Assembly (NCBI GenBank): GCA_023078555.1
Contig: CM041199.1
Span: 9,243,315-9,307,314 of the forward strand
Source of the DNA: Ulva prolifera
Lineage: Eukaryota; Chlorophyta; Ulvophyceae; Ulvales; Ulvaceae
Length of the DNA stretch: 64,000 bases
Direction: 5' to 3'
The first letter of the stretch is position 1. The number at the start of each line of letters is the position of its first letter. A model generated the notes under the pieces. The model made no database searches and was not told the origin of the DNA. It was given only the letters and a program-made list of their open reading frames with translations. Shown one piece after another: positions 4,717-64,000 of the stretch. A program made the position numbers and the translations under genes.

Positions 4717-4724
4717 GCACTATG
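4717..4724. repeat. Target site duplication, left copy
   Basis: GCACTATG directly precedes the inserted element and is repeated directly after it at 6011-6018. Removing the element and one copy restores an intact satellite unit identical to the one at about 4496-4560. Confidence 0.9.
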
Positions 4725-4771
4725 AGGGGGTCATGCACTCCCGCTACGAAGTGGTCCCAGTGTGGGCGCGC
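4725..4771 (+). repeat. Left terminal inverted repeat of the inserted element
   Basis: 47 bp starting AGGGGGTCATGCACTCCCGC and ending GGGCGCGC. It matches the reverse complement of 5964-6010 except at position 39 (T versus A). Similarity fades inward. Confidence 0.92.
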
Positions 4772-5963
4772 ATCAAAACGACCGAATTTTCGTAATTGGG
4801 GACAACTTCGAATATTGTGATCAATGTTTGGGGACTCTGCGTGAGCGATCTCGGCTGTGGGGACTCTCCCCACCCCAGGCCCCCCTTTTGGCGAATAATG
4901 GCGGTTCTCCCCAAACGGTGGCATTCGCTGAGCTTTTCCCGCCCAAACGCACGCCAGTGATCACAGTGCAGTGACAACATAGAAAAGTCACTATGATAGT
5001 GTAAATTGGCGATGTGTGCACTGTTGCGACTTCTGTGAGTGATGTGGTCGTCGTCACAGCTGAGCAGACCTCGACGCACTGCAATGACATGGCTTCGTGA
5101 CCACGCAGTGGTCAACAGGTGTTATACGATGGTGTGCAAGACGTATCCGGTGCCTATATAGTAGGTGGAGCCTGTGTCGGCCTTGGAATTGCAGGGAGTC
5201 GAGTCGTGGGAGTCGTCAATACAGTGGTGCCGCGACCAGTCGAGGAGCCAAACGAGGTGAATGTCGTGGCTACACGCAACTGTGGTTTCGAGAATTCATC
5301 TATGAGGCCCGAGGAGTTTCCGCGGGGGACGTTATACTGATTGAACAGCCGGCATCGCACAACACTACAGCATACGATGGACAGCTCTGATCAAACCAAA
5401 CTACAGAGGCATAGGACGTGAACAGCAATGGCCGCGAATAACAAGCACGGTAGCTGCAAGAGCTATCTCAACTGATTGCAACACCCGGACTTGCATTGCA
5501 CGTGAGTCCACAGATTCAAGTTGGGTAGGCTACTGGTAAGCTGACCAGCTGCACCTCGCCATGGGGAAATCACATCCCGGAACTGCCAACACAAATATAA
5601 TTTTGCACAATAGTTGTATTTGAGAGTCCCAGTGTCAACAGACATCACATGAAGGTATGCTGACCACGATTTGACACTGAGTTTGGAAAAGGGCACACAG
5701 AGACGCAAAATAATACCAAGGAAGGCTATATGCCAGTAAAACATCAAAAGAAGCATCATAGAACGAGTTTGGGGACGGTTGGGGAAGAATGTCGATGTTT
5801 GGGGAACAAAACGCGGATTTGGGGGTACTCCCCACGGGAACAGCCCAAATCGGCGACTTCGGGCGATTCTCCCCAAACCTCCGAGATGAATCAGCCATTC
5901 TGTTCATTTATCCTAAATAATACTTAAAGTTTCCCCCAATCGATCAAAATCGTCGTCGATTTC

Positions 5964-6010
5964 GCGCGCCCTCACTGGGACCACTTCGTAGCGGGAGTGC
6001 ATGACCCCCT
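5964..6010 (-). repeat. Right terminal inverted repeat of the inserted element
   Basis: Reverse complement of the left terminal repeat with one mismatch. It ends GCATGACCCCCT at 6010 and is followed at once by the second GCACTATG copy (6011-6018). Confidence 0.92.
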
Positions 6011-6339
6011 GCACTATGCCAGGCACTATGTAGGCATGGTTCCATGTCCGTGCAGTATGCCGGGCACTATGTCGGGCACTATGTAGGCATGGTTCCATGT
6101 CCATGCAGTGTGTCGGGCAGTATGTTGGGCACTATGTTGGGCACTATGTAGGCATGGTTCCATGTCTGTGCAGTGTGTCGGGCACGACGTCGGGCACTAT
6201 GTCGGCATGGTTCCATGTCCGTGAAGTATGTCAGGCACTATGTTGGGCACTATGTCGGCATGGTTCCATGTCCGTGCAGTGTGTCGGGCACTATGTCGGG
6301 CACTATGTCGGGCACTATGTAGGCATGGTTCCATGTCCG

Positions 6340-48836: not shown

Positions 48837-50090
48837 ATGTCCGTGCGGTATGTCGGGCACTATGTCAGGCACTATGTTGGGCACTATGTCGGCATGGTTC
48901 CATGTCCGTGCAGTATGTCGGGCACTATGTTGGGCGCTATGTCGGCATGGTTCCATGTCCATGCAGTATGCCGGGCACTATGCCAGGCACTATGTAGGCA
49001 TGGTTCCATGTCCGTGCAGAATGTCGGGCACTATGTTGGGCGCTATGTCGGCATGGTTCCATGTCCATGCAGTATGCCGGGCACTATGCCAGGCACAATG
49101 TAGGCATGGTTCCATGTCCGTGCAGTATGCCGGGCACTATGTCGGGCACTATGTAGGCATGGTTCCATGTCCGTGCGGTATGTCGGGCACTATGTCAGGC
49201 ACTATGTTGGGCACTATGTCGGCATGGTTCCATGTCCGTGCAGTATGTCGGGCACTATGTTGGGCGCTATGTCGGCATGGTTCCATGTCCTTGCAGTATG
49301 TCGGGCACTATGTTGGGCGCTATGTAGGCATGGTTCCATGTCCATGCAGTATGTCGGGCACTATGTTGGGCGCTATGTCGGCATGGTTCCATGTCCATGC
49401 AGTATGCCGGGCACTATGTCGGGCACTATGTAGGCATGGTTCCATGTCCGTGCAGTATGTCGGGCACTATGCCAGGCACTATGTAGGCATGGTTCCATGT
49501 CCGTGTGGTATGTCGGGCACTATGTCAGGCACTATGTTGGGCACTATGTAGGCATGGTTCCATGTCCGTGCAGTATGTCGGGCACTATGTCGGGCACTAT
49601 GTTGGGCACTATGTCGGCATGTTTCCATGTCCGTGCAGTATGTCGGGCACTATGTCAGGCAATATGTAGGCATGGTTCCATGTCCGTGCGGTATGTCGGG
49701 CACTATGTTGGGCGCTATGTCGGCATGGTTCCATGTCCGTGCACTGTGTCGGGCACTATGTCGGGCACTATGTTGGGCACTATGTCGGCATGGTTCCATG
49801 TCCATGCAGTATGCCGGGCACTATGCCAGGCACTATGTAGGCATGGTTCCATGTCCGTGCGGTATGTCGGGCACTATGTCAGGCACTATGTTGGGCACTA
49901 TGTCGGCATGGTTCCATGTCCGTGTAGTATGTTGGGCACTATGTTGGCCACTATGTAGGCATGGTTCCATGTCCGTGTAGTATGCCGGGCACTATGTCGG
50001 GCACTATGTAGGCATGGTTCCATGTCCATGCAGTGTGTCGGGCACTATGTCGGGCACTATGTCGGGCACTATGTTGGGCACTATCACTAG

Positions 50091-50646
50091 GAGAATGGCG
50101 ACACGGTGAAACGGATCCGGGTGTCGTCCGCCAGATTCCGAAAGTCCGTTCACTCTCTGATACCTCTCCGACGTCATCGGAAGCGAGCAGTCGGATGGAC
50201 CTTGGACTTTGGCATCGAATCATCCGCCGACCCAGGTATAATCTGCCGGACTGTGGACGTACCTTACCGCTGCAAGTGGCCTTCGCGTGTCTGCGCCGGC
50301 TGCCATGATACGAGGTCACTTCGGGCCCAGCCCGCGCTGACAGTGGATCGAATGATACTATTGGTTACTTTATTACTACACGCGTATCTGGAAACGACTG
50401 GATTCGACACGGTGCAGGTATATGTGGACCCATACTCATGGCAACTGACATCGACTTTGGGCAGGAGACGAAGCGGCAGGAAGCTGGAGGCAGGCTCACA
50501 ATAGCGGTGACTTTCTGCATCGCCCAAGATAGCGTTGGTCCGTATTTCAGGCTCGGCAGCAGTCCATGTAGTGTTGGTCGTCGCCCTGTGAATGGTGGCC
50601 GGAAAAGCGTGCACATAGGTTCCTGGATGCGAATGCATGCGGTGGT
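50091..50646. other. Non-coding stretch next to the transposon end
   Basis: I see no supported gene. Open frames on both strands overlap and have no motif. The segment is not satellite. It separates the CACTA terminus from the hairpin repeats. Confidence 0.5.
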
Positions 50647-51001
50647 CCAGAGTGGCCATTCGGCGAATGGCCACTCTGGCGGAGTAACGTCATCATGCTC
50701 CAGGTAAGGCGTGCGCTCGTCCTCCTGGACGCGAATGCATGTGATGGTCCAGAGTGGCCATTCGCCGAATGGCCACTCTGACGGGGTGACGTCATCGTGC
50801 TCAAGCAAATGTGTGAGCTCATCCCGATTAGTACCTGGCTGCGAGTGCATACGCTGATCCAGAGCGGCCATTCGCCGAATGGCCGCTCTGGCGGGATGAC
50901 GTCATCGTGCTCCAGGTAACGAGTGAGCTCATCCCGATTAGTACCTGGATGCGAGTGCATGCGCTGGTCCAGAGTGGCCATTCGCTGAATGGCCACTCCA
51001 G
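50647..51001. repeat. Four hairpin repeats, candidate subterminal transposase sites
   Basis: Four copies of a roughly 102-110-bp repeat each centre on a 33-bp palindrome with 15-16-bp arms and a one-base centre: 50647-50679, 50749-50781, 50859-50891 and 50969-51001. The arm is CCAGAGTGGCCATTCG. In the third copy both arms change together (AGTGG to AGCGG, CCACT to CCGCT), so pairing is kept. The fourth is imperfect at its right edge. The first three are followed by a (T/A)ACGTCAT motif; TGACGTCA is complete in copies two and three. The last two share CTCATCCCGATTAGTACCTGG. CACTA transposases bind subterminal direct and inverted repeats, and these lie 0.56-0.92 kb from the proposed end. Confidence 0.85.
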
Positions 51002-51252
51002 CGCGGTTGATCTCACCCTGCCCTACCCGAGTGATCAGGCGCCTTTGCATTCGGGGCCCCCAACTTGGGTCGTGCTTCATGAAAGGGACAAACGGTGGAT
51101 ATTGTGTATGATACGGCTAACGTCCAGCGTTTGTAGTTCACCTGGCGTTTCAGTGCACCGCGTCCCTGCTGGCGTCGTATTCCTTCGCCTAGCTGCGCTG
51201 CTCGTGACCAGTTACCGCATCCGGCAGTGACTAGAATATTTGTTTGCATACA

Positions 51253-54200
51253 ATGGATCCGCGCCATGCTGCAGCAGTTGCAGGGCTGTCAAGTACCCAG
51301 AATGGGCCTACTTCCGCGCGCAGCGGAGACTTACTCGTCGGTCGCATGCGTACTCAGAGAATCCCTGTAGTGGGTACTTTAATTTCAAGGGACGGGCGTT
51401 TTACTGATCGTGCCCGCGTCGGCCGCAACGACGGTCCACTGTCCGGTCCTGGGGTGTCGGTGTGGTGGTCCCTGGGGGTGGTTCTGCGAGACGACGTGGT
51501 GGAGAGTCGGACGAGGGAGCTGGGTACGGCCAAGGAAGTGATTGTCACTACCTGTCTCGTGCTCTCCTCCTGGCTGCACGAGCAGGCAATGCTCGTGTCC
51601 TCGTGGGAGGGCAAAGGGAAGACCCCACATGGCTGCCTGGTGCCCCGGCGGTGGAAGCCCCTGTCGGGAAAGACAGAGGTGTGTGTGCCCGGTGTGCTGG
51701 TGGATCAGCTGAGCGCGATCTGCATTTACTGCCAGTCCACTGACACGGGGCCCGGCTAACCTGTGGAGTGGGGCCAGGACTCAGTGCCGCCATTTGTGCA
51801 GGTTGAGATCACCGGCCACGTAAGTGAGTCTGGCCTCCCTAAGACCAGAATCACAGCGGAGAGAGATCCGGAGCTTCGCCAGCGGTTCGTTCTTCCTCAG
51901 ATCAACGTGGGGGGAAAGCGCAAAGGCCCGGACCCCCCGCGTCCAGACGGTGTGCTCTCTGCACGCATGTTGTTATGTAACGCAGTCACGTATGCTGTCC
52001 CCACATCGTGCGCGGCATGGCCTCCGCATTTGTGCACAAGTGACATGGGTGTTCTCGGTGCAGTGTATCATTGCTCCACCCCGCGACACGTCGTGTGGGC
52101 CTGGGCTTCCTTCATGTCTGGGCTGTCCCCTCATCGCACCAAGTTGTGGACAGCCGGAAAGGCGTCTCCCGCGGTGGAGGGTCACGGGTCCTCCAGGCAC
52201 AGGGAGAGACCCACATCCAACCTCCCAGAGGACCTGAACCCGCTGGTGGCGTGGGTGCTGTATGAACACGCACACTACCTCCAGCTCGAGAGCATGGATG
52301 AAGATGAGCTCGAGCCGTGTCAGTCGATAGCACGGCACATTGGGGACCGGTGCCACAGGATGTTGGCGAACACAAACGGGGTCCCTGCACAGCCGGTTTT
52401 CCAGCTGACCTCGGGCGTGCCGGTGTTAGCTGACATGCACACCTCGCACTCGGACCTCATCAAAGCTTTCGTGCGCTCCTGTGACTTTCCATGACTCCGG
52501 CATGGACAGGGGGACTGCCTGTTGGTCTGTGTGCTGTCCTGTTCTACCAGGCATTTGTACCTTATCGCATGCATGATCGTGGCCATGGTGCCCCGGGCCC
52601 TGTTTCTGTTGATCCCTCAAGTCTGGCCTGTCACCGGCCTGGGCTCGAGCTGTGTAGTCAGGTCTCTTTGCGTGCAGGATGTCAAGATCCTCGGTGAGTT
52701 TGTCGCCGCGCTCGACAACTTAGGACCCTGGGTATTGGCTTATGCGGCGGAGCACCCTCTGTTTGATTGTGCAGAGGTGCGAGGTGCCACTGACCTGTAC
52801 ATGCCATCGAGAGCTGCGTGTCTGTGCAGAGCTGTATATGCTTTCTGTTCCCCGTCCCCCATTGTTGAGTATACCTGGATCTCGCCGTGCAGGGTGACCG
52901 AGTAGCCCGAGCTCTCCGTCCGGCGTGGAGTTCTGTCCAGGCATTCAACTCCCACATCATGTGGGCATGTGAAGGGCTGCAGCTGACCTCTACGGAACTG
53001 GCGTCCTTCGCCACGAATGGGATCCACCTGTTCATGCATGCTTATCGGCGCCTCGTCGCCGCGGCTGTGACAGGGGACCCGGGGGCGCCTGTCCTGGAGA
53101 GGCGGCGTGTGCAGGTCATTCCAGCCTTGGAGCCCAGCCTCCTGGATCCCGCCTTTGCCGCCATCCTGGTGTGCACGGTGAATACCAGCAGTGCGCTACC
53201 AACCTTTTCTTCTCCATTGTTCAGGATTCAGTTGTTACCTGCTGTAGCCCCCGATGTGGGGCAAGACTCAGCTTTGCAGACAGTGCTCTCGTCTGAACCA
53301 CGCGGTGCATCCAGGTTTGGTGAAATCGGGGTATGGTCAGCCCGTCAAGAGGCTGGCCGACGACCTGATCCCCTTGTGCCCGCCCCACACGCTGTGGCAC
53401 TGGGCGCTCAGGAGCTGGCGGTACCTTAGCGTGGGGCAGAAAGACACCGCGGGGAGCAGTTCCGGGAAATCAGCATCCCCGCCGGTTGTCCGCCTTAGGC
53501 CAGGATCATTCCCCGAGATCAAGGACTGGGATTATGCCGGCGCTGAAGAGCTTGCCAAGCTGTCCTTGGCCAAGGGGATGCAGAGCTCTCAGTGTTACAT
53601 GTGCGAACCCCCGGTGATGGTCCCTAGTCCAGGAGTGTCTCTTGCAGAACATGCTCCCTGCATGTTCAGTCGTATGCGACTGAGTACTGGCCATCAGATC
53701 CTCCTGTTCTTTCACCAACGGGAGCATGTGCTGCTGTTAGTTGATCCAGAGTTGACATGCACGGGCCCTGGGACTACCAGCGTGTTCTGTTTGTTGTTGG
53801 CGACTCCGGTTAATGGTACAGGGCGGAGCTCAATAACATTCCCGAAGGTATCCTCGCCACCCTGCCCGAGGACTTGCGGCAGCCGCCTGTCGTAGCACCC
53901 CAGCCTACCCCTGGGGCAGGGGGTGCCGGTGACACCCCTGCCTCTGGCCAGCGCAACCGTCGACGAACCGGGAAGCACGAGGTAGCTAAAGCACGTACCA
54001 AGTCGCTAATGCTGCGTAAGATGGGCCTGCCACCAGCCAAGAAGGGGGACACAGCCGCTGGCGGCACCGATACCGGCGGCAGCGACACTCAGGAATCCGG
54101 TGGGGACAGGGGCACCACCCGCCCTGCGTCCAAGGTGGCCACAGGGCCAGAGGTGCTCGGCCTGGGTTCCGCTGCGGGACCGGGGCAGGGGGGGGCAGTC

Positions 54201-55319
54201 TCCCAGCCGGGGGGGGGGGTGCGTGTGGCCGTCCCGCAGAGGCTGTGCCGGTCACGGCAGCGACAGGGGGGTTGAGCCTGACTGTGGGGCGGGGGGTGGT
54301 TTGGGGGGGAAAGCAGCGGCGGTGGCAGATTCGGCGGCGAAGGCGGGATTGAACCCCACTGTGAGGGTGGCAGCCACTGGGGGGGCTGCGGAGGCATTGC
54401 CAGTCACAGCGCTGAAGGCGGGACTGAGTCCCGTGGAGGGGAGGGCAGCGGGGGGGGGGGGGGGGGGGGGGGGGGGCGCGGAGGCTAAGGCAGGCTTGGC
54501 GGGGCAGGGCGGGTTGAGCCCAACGGTGGCGGGGGCGGGGGGGGGGGGGGGGGGGGGGGGGGGCTGGGGGGGGCCGGGCTGCGGAAGCTATGGAAGACAT
54601 GGCGGCGCGTGGCGGGTTGAACCCACCAGTGGGGGGGGGAGTTGTGGGGGATTTTGCGGGGATCCCCTTGCAGGGTCAGGACGCTACAGGTCGTCCAGAA
54701 GTGGGCCCCTTTGGCCTGCCTGTCCCCGTGCCGGCGGGCGGACCGGAACCCGTCCCTACAGGGTTTATGCAACCGGACAGTGCGGAAGGACGTGGGGATC
54801 TGGTGTACGATCCGGTAGCAGACGCCATGTTTGCAGATGCTCTGGCGGAGGCAGTGCTGTATCCGGAAGACCACTCCTCAGATTATTTCGGATCCATCAG
54901 CTTGGATGACGATTCGGATCGTTCTGACCCAGCGGACCCCCGCTGCGCTGTGCACGAAGTGGCGACAGAGGACCCTGAGACTAGGCCGTCCCAAATAATC
55001 TACCTGCACGATAGTTCGGGGTCAGTTCGTCTAACCGTGGACGAGTCCTTCGAGGAGCAGAAGACTACCCTGCGCATGGCCGCCACTTTCGTATCTCCTC
55101 CGGGTGGTTCGGTCGGGCGTGCTGCTCAACTGCGGCTCATTGTCGTGGCAGTTGACCTGATGTTGGTAAGCACCGCCGGCATGGATTTGACTAAAGCGGA
55201 GCGCTTGGTCCGCATGAAGTCGATCATATCGGCGTACGGGCTCCAACCAGATGAAGACACTGTATCCGAAGTTGTGTCACTGATTCAGACGGTGCGCTCC
55301 TCCAAGCAAATTACCCCCG

Positions 55320-55369
<50 letters not shown>

Positions 55370-55525
55370 TGGCCAGTCTGTCGCATGGCCGTGGTGGGCC
55401 AATTCTCTACTCCCTCTCCCAAGGCAGACGTACAGAACCCAGGGATGTTGACCGTGCAGGGACGCAATTCTACAGAGGGCAGCGAAGCCGTCCCAGCCCC
55501 GGATCCTGTGGTGAATACTGGTTGA
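51253..55525 (+). CDS. Multi-exon gene of unknown function (probable third transposon gene)
   Basis: I do not recognise the product. Exon blocks, inferred from frame and splice signals, are about 51253-51759 (ATG at 51253), 51800-52470, 52678-52776, 52893-53168, 53225 to about 53600, then 53850-55525. Three junctions keep phase exactly: GTGCGC...GTGCAG (52471-52677), GTGCGA...GTGCAG (52777-52892) and GTGTGC...TTCAG (53169-53224). The middle has helical, aromatic-rich sequence and the Cys-rich motif VTCCSPRCGARLSF. Next comes a basic stretch, RNRRRTGKHEVAKARTKS, that looks like a nuclear localisation or DNA-binding patch. Then come 25-residue repeats with core KAGLxPTV, an acidic Ser/Asp region, a folded-looking part (VDLMLVSTAGMDLTKAERL), a proline run encoded by C50, and a TGA stop at 55523. 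Reading frame changes at the poly-G tracts. It could be a TNPA-like DNA-binding partner of the transposase, but nothing proves that. Confidence 0.5.
54450..54476 (+). repeat. Poly-G tract, 27 bp
   Basis: Uninterrupted run of 27 G inside the third gene, encoding polyglycine if translated. It can form G-quadruplex structures and is prone to length error. Confidence 0.9.
54537..54563 (+). repeat. Poly-G tract, 27 bp
   Basis: Second run of 27 G, 60 bp downstream of the first. The coding frame differs on its two sides, as judged by the flanking repeat cores. Confidence 0.9.
55320..55369 (+). repeat. Poly-C tract, 50 bp
   Basis: Uninterrupted run of 50 C near the 3' end of the third gene. It is in frame as a proline run between the residues SSKQITPA and WPVCRMAV. 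Confidence 0.9.
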
Positions 55526-55598
55526 TGAGCAAAGTCCCTGGAGGATGGGGGCCTGTGGTGAATACTGGTTGATGAGCTAAGTCCCTGGGGGATGGGGG
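55505..55598 (+). repeat. 47-bp tandem duplication across the stop codon
   Basis: Two nearly identical copies starting CCTGTGGTGAATACTGG lie at 55505-55551 and 55552-55598. They contain the TGA that ends the third gene, so the second copy is downstream of the stop. Confidence 0.85.
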
Positions 55599-56253
55599 TG
55601 CCGGTAGCACAGCTGCATGGGAGTACACTTTAATGCGGCGTGCAGTGTCCGCTAAGCCATCAAGCGTAGCACTTCCCGGCAGTATCAGCATAGTCACTTT
55701 GTTAATGCAGATGCTACGGGAATACGTCACAATTCTTCCCAGTTCGGCGGTAATACAAGGACGGTGGGCCACATCACTGTACAGTGATGCAACCCCGTCT
55801 ACTAGTGCCATACGCTCTGCTATAATGCAGGGGTTGACCGTTGTACCCCTGTAATCCTACAGCGCCGACCTGGTGTAGCCGTTGAGGATTGATAGGATTT
55901 TTACACGAAATAACGATTAGAATACTGAGTCGAACTCCGTACGCAAACTGTGGCGTCTTGTCTTCTGCAGACAATGTGTTCAGAACAGTTTCAGCTGTGC
56001 CTGCCTGGCAGCAGCCCGCAGCGCTGCAGATACACCGAGGTTCAGTGCAGCTGCAGCGAAATGGCATCACCTGGCCTGTGGCGTCGGAATGTCCCGGATG
56101 CCACCCTTCAGTGACTCATACACGCGTCTTCAGCGAAATAGCCATCAGCTTGTTATACTGCTGACTCAGGGTAGCCACTACCGGGCTCGCCTTCTCCAGG
56201 AAGGTGTCAAAGCGCGCCTGCAGGTACCACTCCCTGCAGATCCAGCAGCTTCA
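55599..56253. other. Convergent intergenic region
   Basis: This separates the 3' ends of the plus-strand gene and the minus-strand protease gene. Short overlapping frames on both strands have no motif. A TGTAA, the usual green-algal polyadenylation signal, lies on the plus strand at about 55851, some 325 bp past the plus-gene stop. It is too short a motif to be called on its own. Confidence 0.4.
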
Positions 56254-59200
56254 TCAGGCAAAGGTCCCCACCGGGCCTCCAAGGGGGTGCCAGAGGATAG
56301 ATGGTGACAATGCTGCGGTGGACATGGCAGGTGCATCGAGTCGCCCGCACCTCAGCCCCTCTTCGGAAAAGTCGTTGAATGGCGGTGTCTGGAGGTGGCG
56401 GTCCCACCTAGCGTCGGCAAGCATCTTGGTGCCGTCCTCGACTGATAAGTGTCCCAACTTGTCGCCCCCTCTCCCGCCTCGGTGCCACTCTTGAATGAGG
56501 GCTCGAGTGAGGACGATACGGTACAGCACCGCGTGCTGCACCTTGACGCGGTTGGTGAGTAACAGGACCCTTCGAGTCGCCTCGTAACCGTGGATGTCAC
56601 TGCTGAACACAGTTCCCCCCTCCTGTCGCATGCGGTGGATGACGTCGCACACAGCGTCGGCCAGCATGCATGTGAAAATCCCGCAGTCGTGGCCGTTTGG
56701 TTGCTGCGGGGTTCCTCCAACCTGGACACCACTGGGGGACGGTTATAATGCTAATGTTACGTCAACAGATCAGGTCCACCGCAGACCTTGGACGCGGGGT
56801 GGTTCCAAAGCAGTACGCTGTCCGGTTTCGGGCAGAGAGGGGGGGGGGGGAGTCTGGTGGGCGCAATCAGAGGGTGCTGTTGTGTCAACGATTGCAGTCC
56901 ATTTGGTAATATGCGCGACTGTCAAGGGTCAGAGGACAGCATCTGTGTGGATGGTATCGCAGGAGAACAGTGGGACGTGGGCATTGTACCTTCGCCAACT
57001 TCAGGGTTATCCTAGCGGTGGATTCGGTCGGCCGGGTGGCCAGTCGGACGTTGTGTCGGCGGCCCACTGCTTTTACCCGAGGCCGGGTGGTAGATGGGGG
57101 GTCTTCCGGGGGGGAGGGGGCCCGGCCCTCGGGGCAGTCAAGCGCCATGCACAGAGCCTCACTCAAGACGTCCCTGGCCCGTTCAGCGGTCCCTGAGTCG
57201 GCGCTTATCAGGCTGTCAAAGAACGACACAGTCGGCGCCTTATTCTGCTTCATACGCCCTGCATTATGGCTGAAACGTCAGTAGTGGCGTTCAGTGGGCG
57301 TCTTTTGGGGGGGGGGGGGGGGGGGTGGGGGGGCATATGCCAGTCCCTCGCACAGCAGGCTACCTCATCACATTGTCAGCTGCTGCGGGAGAGCGTACAT
57401 GGGTGCCAGATGACAGCCAACATCCAGTGGCTGTTCCGGGGAATAGGGACTAAGACGCATTCTTGCTCAAAGGTGTGAGCTCTGAACATCCACCGCCCCA
57501 TAAATCTGGTGCGTCCGCTTGACCAGTCTGCGTCCGCATCCCCAGTACATATCCCAGCCATATTCTGGCTAGGCGTTGCAATGACGCCCTGCCCGGCCAG
57601 CGCGACACACCAACTCAAGGCGTAGTCAACGTGTGCACTCTCGGCCCATGCGGTGGGCCAGCCTCTCGCGAGGGTGTCCAGACCGACTGTAACAGACACC
57701 CGAGCATCCCCAAAATGCCCTAGCTGCAAGGTCACACCGCCCACCACATTCGGGAACCTCTCCCCATCCTCGTCGCCGGAGGACACTACGGTCGGTTCAG
57801 CTGCCTCCTGCGTTGTGTCGGCAGCGGATGAACCGGCGTCTTTGGAAGTGGACCCCCACTGCTGCCTCAGCTTGCCCGGAGGCTTTGCAGGGAGGTTTGT
57901 GACCCAATCCGGTGGCACCACCGGAGGGTGTGCCAGGAGGGATGCTGACAGCCGCGGGACGTCCGGGGCAGGAGGAAGTGCGGACAGGATAGGCCCCTCT
58001 TGACCGGGTGCTGGACAAGCAGGCTCCGGAGAGGACCGGAGCGGGGGGGGGGCCTCGCCGATGGAGCAGATGGCTGCACCGACTGGGGCAGGTTGGGGCC
58101 CCTCGCTAGGGCCATCATCAGGGGTGACGGATGGAACCTGATTGGCATCGTCCAGCCATGGCGGCGGCAAACAGCCACTGGTCCGCGATGGCGACGGCGG
58201 CCTCACAGGGCCAACCGGCTGTGGGGACTGCGGGGGCAACGCCACAGGGGGAACCCTTACTGCAGCCGGCCCCTCTGGCGGCGGATGATCCCGGCTAAGG
58301 ATCTGCGCTACGGCCGCAGCCCCCCCCCGTGCGGCACCCCGTGCCCCCCTGCGCAACCTAATGCGTGCGGGCTGCTGCAGATTGGTGCCCCGAACTGCGC
58401 GCCCTCTACCCGGTGCCCTTGCCCCTTGTGCCTCGCCAACCCGCTGCTGCTGCCGCAGATTGGTGTGTCTGCCACGCCCCTGCCTTCGGTCACCCGGGCG
58501 TATACTGGTGGCTATGGACTCTGTTGGCGGCGGGGCAGCGACTGCACCCGGTCCTGGGGCTGTGGCGGTGCCGGTGACGCCCCCAAGAGCGGCGTCGGGT
58601 CCCCCCCGGTCTTCACCGTCCGACCCGCCCGCCCCACCCCTCTCTAGCTGTAACGCCAACATGGGCGCCTGCAGAGGCCCCAACCTGAACCTCGGAGCGA
58701 GGCCACTTAGGATTTGGAGTCCGTGCGAAGTTTGCCTCGCACTGTATCCACTCGCAGATCAAGTCTGTCCCGCCCGTGTGCCGCACACGTTCGAGCAGGC
58801 CGCCAGCGTCTTCTATGATGCCCGCGCCGACCTGGCAAGACCGGTACAGCACGATCTCCTCTGGCTTGCACGGGGCCTTAGTATGGACCGCGCGCTCGAA
58901 TGCGATCATCCGGAGGTCGTGCCAGAGGGATTTCATCTTCTGCTCTACCCGCGCGGCGTGGTCGGCGGTTTGTGAAGCCTCTACACTCTCCTTCATCGCC
59001 CGGATCGAGTCCAGGTACATTTCTAACCCTTCCCCCCCGGCCTCCACTATAGAGCCCACCATGGTAACATCTACAGTCGTTAATAGGTAGGCGTTGGCCA
59101 TGAAGTCTATCGGGAACCCGGGCTTCCGGGTACAGATCGTTAGTGCTGGGATCGGCTGGCCAGGCGTCCAGTTACCCTTCAGGGCGGTTTCCAGGAACCG

Positions 59201-59308
59201 CTTGAAAGACGAGTCACACGAACGGTTACTACGAATTGTCGCAAGGTAGGCCCGCAAGTCCCTGTCCGTTATCATACTGGCACACATCGTGTGGACTGTA
59301 CACCGCAC
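56254..59308 (-). CDS. Ulp1/SENP-like cysteine protease (peptidase family C48), multi-exon
   Basis: Predicted SUMO- or ubiquitin-like-specific protease. Catalytic residues are read in order: His in PIPRNSHWMLAV (codon 57427-57429), Asp in VSFFDSL (57215-57217), and Gln and Cys in PQQPNGHDCGIFTC (Cys at 56683-56685). This is the full C48 set. Introns inferred from splice sites and phase: 57259-57398 (GTACGC...ATGCAG) and about 56732-57152 (GTGCAT...CCCCCAG). The catalytic part is preceded by about 300 residues rich in Pro, Ala and Gly, then by a helical 231-codon block (58613-59308) in another frame. The latter may be an N-terminal exon or a separate small gene; the joint near 58660 is unclear. 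The stop is at 56254. It lies downstream of the transposase on the same strand, 333 bp after its stop. Ulp1-like proteases occur as passengers in plant transposons; the target here is unknown. Confidence 0.78.
57307..57325 (+). repeat. Poly-G tract, 19 bp, in a protease intron
   Basis: Run of 19 G on the plus strand (C on the gene strand), inside the inferred intron 57259-57398 and about 50 bp before its 3' splice site. There it can serve as pyrimidine tract. It is followed by TGGGGGGG. Confidence 0.85.
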
Positions 59309-59641
59309 AGAAACGTTCTATCCGCGCTATCGCGACGCAGTCTTCCTACATCAACTGCATCAGACCTTGCACCTACCATTAATCTGTCCGCTGGACCAGC
59401 GACGTGCACTAACAGACGACACCGACGCTTGAAGACCAAGCGAAAGTGGCCACGAGCGCACGCCACAGGACGTGGGTTGTATGGCTCCAACGAGGGTGGC
59501 GCCTGTAGACACGCACTGGCGGGGACTCTGGTCCCCCCCCGTGGCCCTCTGGCAAGTATGGACAATGCAAAGTGGGCACAACTGGGATTGCAGTCAACTG
59601 GGATTGCTGACGAAGGCATATGCGGCGGTGGTCTTGTACAA
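59309..59641. other. Spacer between the two minus-strand genes
   Basis: No supported gene. It would hold the transposase 3' region and the protease upstream region. Small overlapping frames lack motifs. Confidence 0.4.
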
Positions 59642-62600
59642 TTACACAGTTCGGCCAGAAGCCTTGTTCGCAGTGGCCCAATACTGCACATTTTGTGCAC
59701 CCCTCCGGACTGGAACTAACTGGCATGGAACTGCGTCCAAGTCTACGACGTATCTGCCGGCATATGCCCGAGACCCCCTGTTTGCACCCGCCACACCGAA
59801 AAACTCAGGGGGGCGTTTCAACACGGGATCAGGGGCGCGGGCTCCCGGGGTGGCTGGCAAGGTGCAATTATACAGATCAGCAACCCCCAGGTACAATGGG
59901 TTTGGTTTCGCAACACATGACACGCAACACACGCCATCCCGGGGCTGCAGACACGCCCTCGTGAAAAACTGCAGTTCCCCGACGAAATACGTCACTGTCC
60001 CGCCACCCCCGTCCCCGTCCCCCCCAATGAGGTACCTCAAGAGGCACCACTTGTTGTCTTTCTTCCCTTGCGTACCCTGTTGCGAGCAGCTGAACATGTC
60101 TGCAACGCGGGATTGCATCTGGTGGAACTTCATCAGTGTCACTGTGCCCTCACGGCGAGCCTCATCAACAGTGCCATTCACCTTCAGGCCCAGAGCTCGG
60201 TGGATGGCCGCGCGACGTGCATATCCAACCCCCAGGCGACAGTGAGTTGGCCAGCCCTCATCCTGTAGGGAATCCTGATGGAAGAGGAGGTACGGCAGCC
60301 CTGTCAGCTCATCTCCCACGAAGTCAAGGGGGAGGACCTCTGCAGTCTCAGACTGGGCAGGAGCCCTGCCCACCCCGACGACCCTGTCGGAGATCCGGTC
60401 GCTGTCAACTGATTGATCCCCGTCAGCGGATCTTCCATTGCGAGTTCGTGCCCGCCGGCGTTTCTCCGTCGCTATGGCATCCGACAGTGAGGTCATGGCA
60501 GCAGGCAGTGAAGCTGCATCATGTAGCAGCCGCATACATGGGCGGCGCAGCAGTTCATCACTCACGTATACTTGTTCAGGGCAACGAGTCGATCGATATT
60601 TGATCAGCCTCTTCAAGAGCTGGACCATCCGCTCGATCCAGAATTCAAGACTGAAGAAGGATGCACCGCAGCACCTAACCTGATCCGGGAGGTGACAAGC
60701 TGCCAGATGCAGCTTGTACGTGCTGAGAGCGGCGCCCTCAAACGTCTCATCCGCCAGCTTGGCGTACTGCAGCATCAATCGCTGTGCTTCCGTGATTCGG
60801 GCCGGTGTGTGCTGACCCTCTTCATATCTGAGAAAGTAGAGGGCCCCTGCTCGCAGGAGCCCCCACGACTGCTCAAACACACTGCGTATGCGTTTCTCGG
60901 AGGCTTTCCACGGGAGATCGTGCAGGAGGTACAGCGAGAATGTCTCGGTGAAGGCCAGCAAGTCTTCCATGAGCCAGCGACTGCGGTGCCTACGCAAACA
61001 GTCACCCTGACTCAGACGGGCTGCTTCAACAGGAGTGCACATGGTTCCTGCAGCTGTGTCCAAGTAACAGTCCGACAAATGGCGCAGCCTCGGATGCGAG
61101 CAGGGTGTGCAGGCGATGGGACTGCGCACTTGGTGATGTCGGTGTACACCTTCTTGAAAAGAGAGGTCTGCATGATGTGGGGCGCTCTGGCAGCTATCGC
61201 CTTGACGACATCCTCTGGCAGTCGGAACAGGGCCCGGAGGCCAGTCAATGGCGCCTTCTTGGACTTCTTCCGGCCCAGGGGAGGGAGCCACTGGTTCCAG
61301 AAGTCCATGAGCACACCGAGCAGAAACACGTGCGCCACTCCGAGCCGGAAGAAATGGCAGGGACTGCAACGCCACAGCGTATTTCATAATCAACTCCAGA
61401 CTCAAGGGCGAGGCAGGCAGCAGCAGGCTGGGGGTGCTCGTACTTGAAGTAGGAGAGGAGACTGAACAGCGGAAGTAGCTTGTACTCATCTTTGGCGAGC
61501 TTGGCCCTGGACTTCGGTGTCTTCCGGTCGCAATAGCGTTTCAAGGTTGGTGCGTGGACCTGCACTACCACAGGCCTGGCCAGGGTTACCACAAGAAAAG
61601 AGCCGTATCACCAACGACGCTTGTTCGGTGACAGAGGGGTTGGCATGATGAGTTGCGGCGCACAGAGGGGGGGCAGGGGAGTAGGCGGCATGTGCACAGT
61701 TTGCATTCTATGACACTGTAGATGGAATTGCACCTGGGCAGCGATCTTGTCGCCCTTTCGGCCCCTGGCCAGGATCTCTGCCGCCGAGTACTTCAAGCGG
61801 TTGTCAGACTCCCAGGACGAGGGCTGCACATGCCGGGGCTCAGACCACGCGGTCCGCGGCGGGTTGCCACCAGTGTCCGGTTGTACACTCCCAGGCACCA
61901 TCCGGGGGTTTGCAGCAGAAGATGCCGCTTCTTCCTCCGGGGTGAGTGATTTCCCTTTCAGAGGCCCGTCGGCATAGCAGGGCACGGGCTGGTGCAGAGG
62001 GTGATGGTGTCCCAGCCACCTGTGTGGCATGCATGATAGCAGTTATGAGCAGGACAGGTACGTGAGACAGCACTAGCAGGAAAGAGATTACAAACGTAAG
62101 TGAACACCCCGGACCTGACAGTGTTGGCGGGGTAATCCCACACGCCGATTTGGGCACATCTGAAACATGCCCTCTTCGCTGTATGGCCGATGCTGTTGGT
62201 AAGTTTCTCCAGCCATGGGATATCCCCCTCCACACAGCACAGCACCGGCCACACGTGCAGTACCTCGCCCCCTGGCAGTGTGATTTCGAGTGCCTCACCC
62301 CCAGCTCCTGCACTCCAGCCATCACGTGGTGCGGGGGCCAGACACTACGTGATCGGGAACTGTACACATCACCCGGCAGTGTCCAGGAAGACAAGGTGAG
62401 TGCGCGCCCGGATCATGCTTCTTGAAGAACGCCATCACGGACTCCAGAATGCTGGCCATGCATGTTGGTTCGGATGGCCCCTCCACCACTCCAAGGGGAA
62501 TCCAGGCCACATTGGTACTTCAGAGATGGGGCGGCAGGTCAAGCAGGCGGATCCCCCAGATGGTGACACCGTGCTGCTTGTTGACATACAGCTGGGCCCC

Positions 62601-63802
62601 GTCCCCCCCTGCAGGAAAAGCGACTGTCGGGACACGAGGCAGAGGGTCTCAATTCGCGGAGTTGCATAGGCGTGCCGTTTCGGTGTGCCTGATAGCCACC
62701 TGCTCAGATGAGGAGGTGGAGCGCACCGAGGCTGAACAGCAGGACAAGCTCCCTATGCTTTGGCTTCAGGATTTTGCCCCCACACCCCAGGTTGAGGGCC
62801 TTTCCAGCCGGGGAGTTGAGGAAGCTGCTTTTGTCTTTGACAGCTGTTGCCCTGGCTTCCCGTACGCTCGTCAGCAGCCCCGGCTGCAGGAGGAGGTCTT
62901 TCAGCGAGGCTTCTTCGCCAAAGAAGAAAGCTGAGCGCACTGGGACACCCTTCCCTGTGAGATCGACATCGAATCGCTGTTGACAACAACCAGGGGTTCC
63001 GCAGGTGTCCGCCAAATGCTGGTGATGGTCACCCGGATCAAGTGGGGGGAACAAGGTCCAGCATTGGGGACAAACGTGGCGCGTCACAGAGGAAACAGGC
63101 GGGACACCCAACACCGCCTTGACGAGGTGAAAGGAGGGGGGGAAAAAGTTGCCATCGGGTAGCAGGAGGTAATGTATGAACCTGCACCACGTATCGACGA
63201 CCACGTCTTGTATGCGAAAGAGGCTCTTCAACTGGGCAATCCACATGCACACCGTGAGGACGGTGAGGGCGCTGCCAGTGTATATGTGTTTCATGCGTTG
63301 GTCATGCCACCAGGCGCCCGTGCCCTTACGGGCCCCTGTGGTGGGGAGCGGGCCGTCGTCATCCGCCTCCTGCATGGGCAACGATGCGGCCAGTCCCACG
63401 GAGGAGTACGAGCGGATTCACAGCATTGCATGTAATGGAAGATGAGGACACACCTCGGATTCGTCTGAACTGTAGTCCGTCTCTGAGGAGAAGGCAATGG
63501 AGTCTGCGTCTGAGGTGTCTGAGTCGGCGTCTGAAAATTGTGCGGGGCCCTCGGCATAGTCACTTTCGGACGGTGGGGGCAGCTGTACACAATCCCAACA
63601 CATCAGAGTTGCTTTGGGCGAGCAGGCAGGTTACAGCTGAGGGACAGGAGCGCTGACACCCATGGCCATCGTGATCACGAGCCGCTGTCAGGCCGATCTG
63701 CATCATGATCAGGCAAACCGGGACTTAGCACGGTCAACTACCGAAGGTACGCACGTCGAAGAGGTCGTCGGAGTGGGCAGGCTCATCGGGGGGACCCCCC
63801 AT
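59642..63802 (-). CDS. CACTA-type transposase (tnp2 / Transposase_21 family), multi-exon, with an in-frame stop
   Basis: The protein order fits tnp2 transposases of the En/Spm class. It opens with an acidic Ser/Asp-rich region. Next comes the YTGSALTVLTVCMW helix and a zinc finger (HVCPQCWTLF ... TCGTPGCCQQRF), then GKGVPVRSAFFFGEEASLKDLL. The catalytic core follows: GDGAQLYVNKQHGVT, IRLLDLPPHL, GVVEGPSEP, VEGDIPWLEKLTNS and TAKRACFRC. After it come TVRWLGHHHPLHQP, FRLGVAHVFLLGVLMDFW, LRHLSDCYL and the STYKLHLAACHLPDQV segment. The C-terminal part has a Lys/Arg-rich patch and RYVVDLDAVPCQL. Introns fitting frame and GT-AG are 63583-63754, 63370-63453, 62020-62114, 61560-61733, 61364-61443 and 61089-61129. 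Introns near 62.79-62.61 and 62.4 kb are less certain. A TGA at 62520-62522 replaces the conserved Arg after LPPHL. The stop is TAA at 59642. I used the ATG at 63800-63802, but the frame is open to the window edge. Confidence 0.82.
62520..62522 (-). other. In-frame TGA in the transposase core
   Basis: The frame continues with family-like sequence on both sides (LPPHL before, STNVAWIPLGVVEG after). In related transposases an Arg follows the LPP motif. A CGA to TGA transition would explain the stop. No splice donor nearby removes it. Confidence 0.65.
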
Positions 63803-64000
63803 GGCTGGAGGTGATGGGGATCTCCCAGAGGGACCGGCCCCGTCGTGTCTGCCGCTGCGGTCATCATCGGCAGTAGCGGAGGTCGGGCCAGCGGCTGGCC
63901 TCGAGTCTGGGCCCGCGTCGTCGTGTCCACCAGCGGCTCTCCGCGATGCGGCTGCTGCACTCAGTCGACGGCTGCAAGGACCGTGATGGTTTTGGGCGGT
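63803..64000 (-). other. Possible 5' extension of the transposase gene
   Basis: The frame of the first transposase exon stays open to the window edge, with an Ala/Gly/Asp/Arg-rich low-complexity sequence. It may be coding or 5' untranslated. Nothing else is recognisable here. Confidence 0.35.

Follow-up and report, generated by a model that had tools for sequence, protein, structure and literature searches.

A large CACTA-type element in satellite DNA of Ulva prolifera and the four-gene set that recurs between its ends

A tandem satellite on contig CM041199.1 of the green alga Ulva prolifera (assembly GCA_023078555.1) gives way at a sharp border to other DNA, which raises the question of whether that DNA is one transposon with its own genes and what those genes might do. 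The window, by which we mean the whole stretch of 64,000 nucleotides that was analyzed, corresponds to C4:9243315-9307314 in a genome assembly of 88.9 Mb and 44 contigs. The satellite fills most of it, from about position 684 to 50084, and CACTAGGAGAA stands exactly at its edge, at 50085. A previous reading made from the letters alone (the sequence-only reading) proposed a CACTA transposon at 50085..64000 with hairpin repeats, a tnp2-type transposase, a Ulp1-like protease and an unrecognised third gene. In this study, we found that the CACTA terminus at the satellite edge had been recognised correctly and that the element holds four coding regions, A(+), B(-), C(-) and D(+). We consider it likely that it belongs to a recently multiplied CACTA/EnSpm (CMC-type) family that moves by cut and paste, with a conserved package of four genes whose roles would be those proposed below.

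We determined the borders of the element using the adjoining sequence stretches L009 and L010, from which all coordinates above 64000 are taken. The right end lies past the window at 67627-67657; inverted, it reads CACTAGAAGAATGGCGACACGGTGAATCGGA, and 29 of its 31 bases were the same as in the left end when compared by eye. Since the left end at 50085 is paired with a right end at 67657, the full element measures 17,573 bp, and the extent given by the sequence-only reading was too short because the window cuts the element. TAT stands outside each end. To the right of the element the satellite opens with the unit variant GGCATGTTTCC and resumes in register over all 12.3 kb of further sequence. 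Removing the element and one TAT in silico produced a 16-bp junction that is present 377 times in the window satellite; junctions of 20, 24 and 28 bp across the emptied site were absent from it. The features of the element are collected in Table 1.

Table 1. Positions of the element, its ends, repeats and putative genes
Feature	Position	Strand	Remarks
Left target duplication, TAT, 3 bp	50082..50084		Right copy at 67658-67660, past the window
Left terminal inverted repeat	50085..50115	+	Starts with CACTA
CACTA element, portion inside the window	50085..64000		13.9 kb; whole element reaches 67657
Left subterminal array	50647..50998		Four palindromes of about 30 bp with core GGCCATTCGCCGAATGGCC; stem at least 12
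Gene A	51253..55155	+	Multi-exon, about 631 amino acids; last small exons doubtful
Gene B, putative Ulp1-like cysteine protease (Peptidase_C48)	56116..59228	-	Multi-exon
Predicted catalytic residues of gene B	H in exon 57399-57639; D in 57163-57258; Q and C in 56351-56731		
Gene C, putative CMC/EnSpm-type DDE transposase	59642..64000	-	Multi-exon; 5' end past the window at about 64.15 kb
In-frame TGA in gene C	62520..62522	-	Between first and second catalytic D
Gene D	about 64491-66537	+	Past the window, extended coordinates; later exons approximate
Right palindrome array	65565-65722		Past the window; three palindromes

The same ends were found throughout the genome. The first 11 bases of the element occurred 118 times in forward and 106 times in reverse orientation, compared with 8 and 11 for the same bases written backwards. 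The left 3.8 kb gave at least 20 further matches at 95-99% identity, each covering at least about 3.2 kb (among the best 40 of 139 candidates), and the right 801 bp gave at least 40 matches, the window's own counted, at least 27 of them at 97-100% (best 40 of 70 candidates). Left and right ends were paired into 20 further copies of the same family, and the borders were read in each. CACTAG..CTAGTG ends were present in the window copy and in all 20, and 16 of the 20 were flanked by a perfect 3-bp duplication, which would occur by chance in 1/64 of sites (6e-26 for 16 or more). A 3-bp duplication was also present in 8 of 10 other copies (L012-L028, with L025 omitted as its stretch ends inside the element). 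A KDZ transposon was ruled out, since the duplications here are 3 bp and not 8 bp, the length given for Zisupton (KDZ) in the relevant part of PMC12730594. In two copies, C7:1751907 and C5:7251439, the left part is 98-99% identical to the window element and the right end 84-85%, which suggests exchange between subfamilies. The copy at C3:6511768-6530671, flanked by GAA duplications, sits between the A, B matches and the C, D matches of an older relative at C3:6504048-6537157; from these coordinates it would be a nested insertion.

We then asked whether the genes recur together. Exon models of A-D were obtained by a home-made comparative search against the copy L012/L013, for A also against L069 and L070, with genomic sequence and no RNA. 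tblastn found A, B, C and D in each of the five full-length elements retrieved from a second, divergent subfamily (the sister subfamily, L014-L023), whose end reads CACTAGGAGAATGGTGAC. Identities of single matches between window and sister proteins were 26-57% for A, 33-55% for B, 31-73% for C and 34-41% for D. Genome-wide, we found 95 matches for A, 96 for B, 97 for D and at least 159 for C (best 150 of 256 candidates). Those tabulated were 93, 91, 96 and, for C, 112, with split pieces omitted and for C also the weaker end of the list. A, B and D all lay within 22 kb of 67 of the 88 C matches at 60% identity or more, compared with 485 of 20,000 random sites. The gene order A+ B- C- D+ was seen at 55 of these 88; B+ A- C- D+ and C- D+ were each seen at 9, B- C- D+ at 7 and A+ B- C- at 3; the remaining five orders each occurred at a single site. 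The orders were read from the nearest matches, and nested copies may mislead individual rows. In the sister subfamily, the A-B block is reversed in two of five elements (L016/L017 and L018/L019, versus L014/L015, L020/L021 and L022/L023).

The sequence-only reading expected that the protease and the third gene would not stand alone outside transposons. This held for most matches, although 11/93 for A and 4/91 for B (and 6/96 for D) had no other package gene within 22 kb. Five of the six lone A matches on C1, on C2 and in the first 3.74 Mb of C3 lay about 2.1 kb or less from an exact element end, and a few of the lone matches may be co-opted or fragmentary copies. The searches proposed in that reading, for inverted ends and for other copies with all genes between matching ends and 3-bp duplications, thus found both: the reverse copies and paired right end described above, and the five complete sister elements together with the 16 duplicated sites. 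Its grouping of the genes into one element also stood, as a single element with a recurring set, but the set comprises four genes and not three. These results suggest that the gene set appears to travel as a unit.

They also bear on the possibility that the 13.9 kb consists of a number of adjacent elements and host genes, with the CACTA terminus at 50085 there by coincidence. Nested insertions occur in this family, as at C3:6511768-6530671, and some copies are subfamily mosaics. At the window copy, however, the ends are paired, TAT is duplicated, the satellite keeps its register across the two flanks, and other copies have this gene set between matching ends. We rejected the side-by-side arrangement for this copy on the paired ends, the duplication and the recurrence of the package, and its probability is negligible.

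Gene C encodes the putative transposase. It has a zinc-finger-like stretch at its N-terminus, and the first mini-exon of the model (64367-64369) is doubtful. The motifs D (GGDG), D (GDIPW), CFRC, HLAACH and E (LEFWIER) follow in this order. The first D is kept in all seven compared copies, and in the other motifs no key position varies among the up to six copies aligned. As described in part of PMC12730594, EnSpm and its relatives have a DDE transposase in which the motifs C(2)C and H(3-4)H stand between the second D and the last E, and the predicted protein of C fits this pattern. The position of the in-frame TGA in the window copy is a sense codon in all seven compared copies, so the window copy is probably not autonomous. 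Relatives of C at 39-59% identity were seen elsewhere, for example at C2:10741453 and C10:506954; 2 of the 24 tabulated C relatives below 60% identity have A, B or D within 22 kb, and these relatives are probably other CACTA families.

The claim that B is a protease with a full catalytic set was borne out at the sequence level. The joined B exons matched Pfam Peptidase_C48 with an E-value of 6.1e-11 and 43 bits (cut-off 20.7), and the motifs SHW, FFDSL and QPNGHDCG supply His, Asp, Gln and Cys. B is thus a predicted member of the Ulp1/C48 cysteine protease family. A genome search with Peptidase_C48 gave 19 matches at an E-value of 0.001 or lower, of which 12 are B matches of the sister subfamily. 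The other seven, including the four best, lie outside the tabulated B matches and may be host Ulp1 genes. The genome also contained 38 matches to Chloroa_b-bind (light-harvesting), which marks the host as a photosynthetic eukaryote.

A is the unrecognised multi-exon gene on the opposite strand from B and C that the sequence-only reading described. Since pieces of it are conserved in the sister subfamily, at the identities given above, we take it to be genuine coding sequence. The predicted structure of its exon 1 alone had a mean predicted local distance difference test score of 32.8, too low to use. D has the highest isoelectric point of the encoded proteins (9.55); it points away from the transposase gene C, with its start a few hundred bases off. 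In viral contigs, 40 pattern matches for A and 76 for D were obtained, none of which was confirmed by tblastn. Runs of G or C of up to 56 bases were observed at 54450-54580 and 55314-55369 of the window, in or beside gene A, and could reflect either mutable tracts or errors of length in the assembly.

The hairpin repeats are present as had been reported, and they are far in excess of chance. The whole element contains seven palindromes of about 30 bp with a stem of at least 11, whereas 20 sequences shuffled in two-base blocks contained 0.15 on average. The left array lies about 0.56-0.91 kb and the right array about 1.9-2.1 kb from the respective end; in the model, the right array falls between conserved segments of D. 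The window copy thus has subterminal repeat arrays at both ends, as in En/Spm-like systems. The sister subfamily has its own, different palindrome, likewise of about 30 bp, with right arrays in 5/5 elements and left arrays in 4/5. A palindrome array also lies between B and C in L014 and L022. In L014 arrays flank the A-B block on both sides, which makes inversion of the block by recombination between arrays plausible.

Four further pairs of sister-subfamily ends (L024, L026, L027 and L028) enclose 6-9 kb that is mostly repeats, including tandem repeats. tblastn gave no match to proteins A-D in any of them. They contain 11, 20, 16 and 25 palindromes, respectively, compared with 0 to 0.1 in shuffles, and three of the four have a 3-bp duplication. 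Such mobile, gene-less and palindrome-rich derivatives suggest that the ends and the palindromes are what is needed in cis.

We propose the following mechanism for the family. The transposase C, whose catalysis is predicted from its motifs, would cut at the CACTA ends. An accessory protein, most likely D and otherwise A, might bind the subterminal palindromes specific to each subfamily and help to join the ends, by analogy with TnpA; we put this forward tentatively. The two are candidates by position and because the element offers no other one. D is preferred over A for its higher isoelectric point and its divergent start near C, which argue only weakly. B could favour mobilisation by removing SUMO, or a modifier like it, from silencing or repair factors or from the complex of the transposase, a role that we hold to be about as tentative as that of the binding protein. 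The window copy would probably move only with proteins from other copies.

The palindromes admit another use. In the same CACTA element, A, B and D may act mainly against silencing, with A or D reading the palindromes of its own family and, together with B, removing or blocking silencing by the host, in a manner like that of VANC/KIU. As described in the relevant part of PMC13317346, VANC recognises short non-coding motifs in related elements, which leads to hypomethylation, and some of these proteins carry Ulp1; the difference in palindromes between the two Ulva subfamilies would suit such a system. However, B is modelled as its own gene and is not fused to A or D, and neither A nor D matches a Pfam family. 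Palindromes retained in mobile gene-less copies suit a role in transposition equally. We regard a mainly anti-silencing function as unlikely.

Selection on the genes was estimated from the ratio of nonsynonymous to synonymous substitution rates (dN/dS). Between the window copy and L012/L013 it was 0.34 for A, 0.22 for B, 0.16 for C and 0.13 for D exon 1; this pair had also shaped the exon models, which biases the values downward. We also used L071/L072, a recent copy not used in the gene models, with wrong reading frames as a control. Against this copy the ratio for C was 0.18 (66.5 synonymous and 39.5 other changes), compared with 1.24 and 1.97 in the wrong frames.

Several observations weigh against the reading of a CACTA/EnSpm family with a functional four-gene package. 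Against L071/L072, the ratios were 0.82 for A (wrong frames 2.19 and 0.47), 0.61 for B (0.62 and 1.47) and 1.28 for D exon 1, from five changes (0.52 and 0.98). Judged by codon changes, recent constraint is clear for C only, and A, B and D do no better than their wrong-frame controls. The evidence for constraint on these three genes is the deep comparison with L012/L013 and their persistence in the sister subfamily. The protein of C matched no Pfam transposase model (Transposase_21/tnp2), a match that would support but not define membership of the superfamily, with E-values of up to 1 allowed for the window model and of up to 5 for the proteins of two further copies; DUF4218 appeared below the cut-off, with 0.025 in the protein of one sister copy and 0.17 in a window exon. 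The label tnp2-type in the sequence-only reading, and the CMC assignment, are thus carried by the ends, the 3-bp duplications and the motifs, and not by Pfam. A and D matched no Pfam family, and their best E-values among solved structures, 0.27 and 0.53, were taken as chance, so a palindrome- or DNA-binding role for them has no support from sequence. The copy L012/L013 and the left end of L022 have no left palindromes, and 4 of the 20 same-family copies have no matching duplication.

The recent ratios of A, B and D would fit drifting copies that are served in trans, and they would fit passengers equally. Such passengers would be captured host genes without a role in the CACTA life cycle (Pack-type). 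Capture of host genes by CACTA elements is known from accounts in PMC2528002 and PMC13317346, the recent ratios are indistinguishable from neutral, and the seven Peptidase_C48 matches outside the B set could be host Ulp1 genes. Against this, all four genes are kept at low identity in the sister subfamily, and the deep ratios of A, B and D exon 1 are low, with the bias noted. Among the genome matches, none was conspicuous as a divergent, host-like single relative of A or D, the lone matches not having been individually inspected. We consider passengers clearly improbable, more so than an anti-silencing set, and retain the four-gene CACTA/EnSpm family. A more far-reaching version, in which the package serves both mobilisation and anti-silencing, A and D are new palindrome-binding families, B removes SUMO at these sites and inversion of the A-B block changes the expression of A and B, is a long shot.

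Two other insertions were observed in the same satellite. Another element of CACTA type, 7,593 bp long, extends from L011:3005 (C4:9236404) to window position 682, with ends of a different sequence (CACTACAAGAAACCTGAC...) and a CCG duplication; tblastn gave no match in it to A, B, C or D. An insert of 1.29 kb at 4725-6010 has long inverted ends AGGGGGTCATGCACTCCCGCTACGAAGTGGTCCCA... and, by eye, an apparent 8-bp duplication GCACTATG at 4717-4724 and 6011-6018, and belongs to a superfamily other than CACTA.

The element resembles several known systems. Ulp1-like proteases occur in several kinds of DNA transposon, namely Mutator, Ginger and CACTA (from passages of PMC2836005 and PMC2528002), and where PMC13317346 and PMC2836005 discuss their role there, it is described as unknown or merely suggested. 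One close description is that of grapevine CACTA elements with ULP domains (Cactavine-2, -3, -4, -5 and -13) and of rice proteins that combine tnp2 and ULP1 (PMC2528002). These share a transposase and a Ulp1 domain with the Ulva element; they are from land plants, the part of the source that describes them does not mention A or D, and the likeness is drawn from their description. A literature search, with subscription journals mostly outside it, found no paper on CACTA with Ulp1 in an alga.

With En/Spm, Tam1 and soybean Tgmt*, the Ulva element shares CACTA ends, a 3-bp duplication, large size (17 kb for Tam1 and 20.5 kb for Tgmt*) and subfamily-specific subterminal stem-loop repeats. In En/Spm, the subterminal repeats are recognised by TnpA, which is required for transposition (all from parts of PMC2613891). 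Those parts describe a TnpA/TNP1-like second protein and mention no protease, whereas the Ulva element has a protease, two unrecognised proteins and perfect palindromes of about 30 bp. Giant algal EnSpm elements are also on record: PMC12477816, in the sections concerned, describes Ectocarpus elements of up to 15.2 kb and cites giant EnSpm elements with multiple accessory genes from the red alga Bostrychia, and the term Ulp is absent from its main text.

The KIU/VANC genes of the Arabidopsis VANDAL (Mutator-like) elements, as described in part of PMC13317346, likewise combine an accessory gene with a Ulp1 domain and family-specific non-coding motifs. VANDAL elements have a transposase of another superfamily, no terminal inverted repeats and Ulp1 fused to VANC, whereas the Ulva element is CACTA-ended and its protease is separate. 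A Ulp1 protease is also joined to the DNA transposon Ginger1, there as the C-terminal domain of a transposase resembling Gypsy integrase (PMC2836005, in its description of the element), in contrast to the separate gene of the CMC-type Ulva element. A recently multiplied family with a separate protease gene beside two unrecognised proteins, two divergent subfamilies and mobile gene-less derivatives makes the respective parts of genes in trans and palindromes in cis testable, and in annotation A, B and D are to be masked as transposon genes and not counted as algal genes. Published work already covers giant EnSpm elements of algae and CACTA elements that carry Ulp1; the new part is the conserved four-gene package with its two unrecognised proteins.

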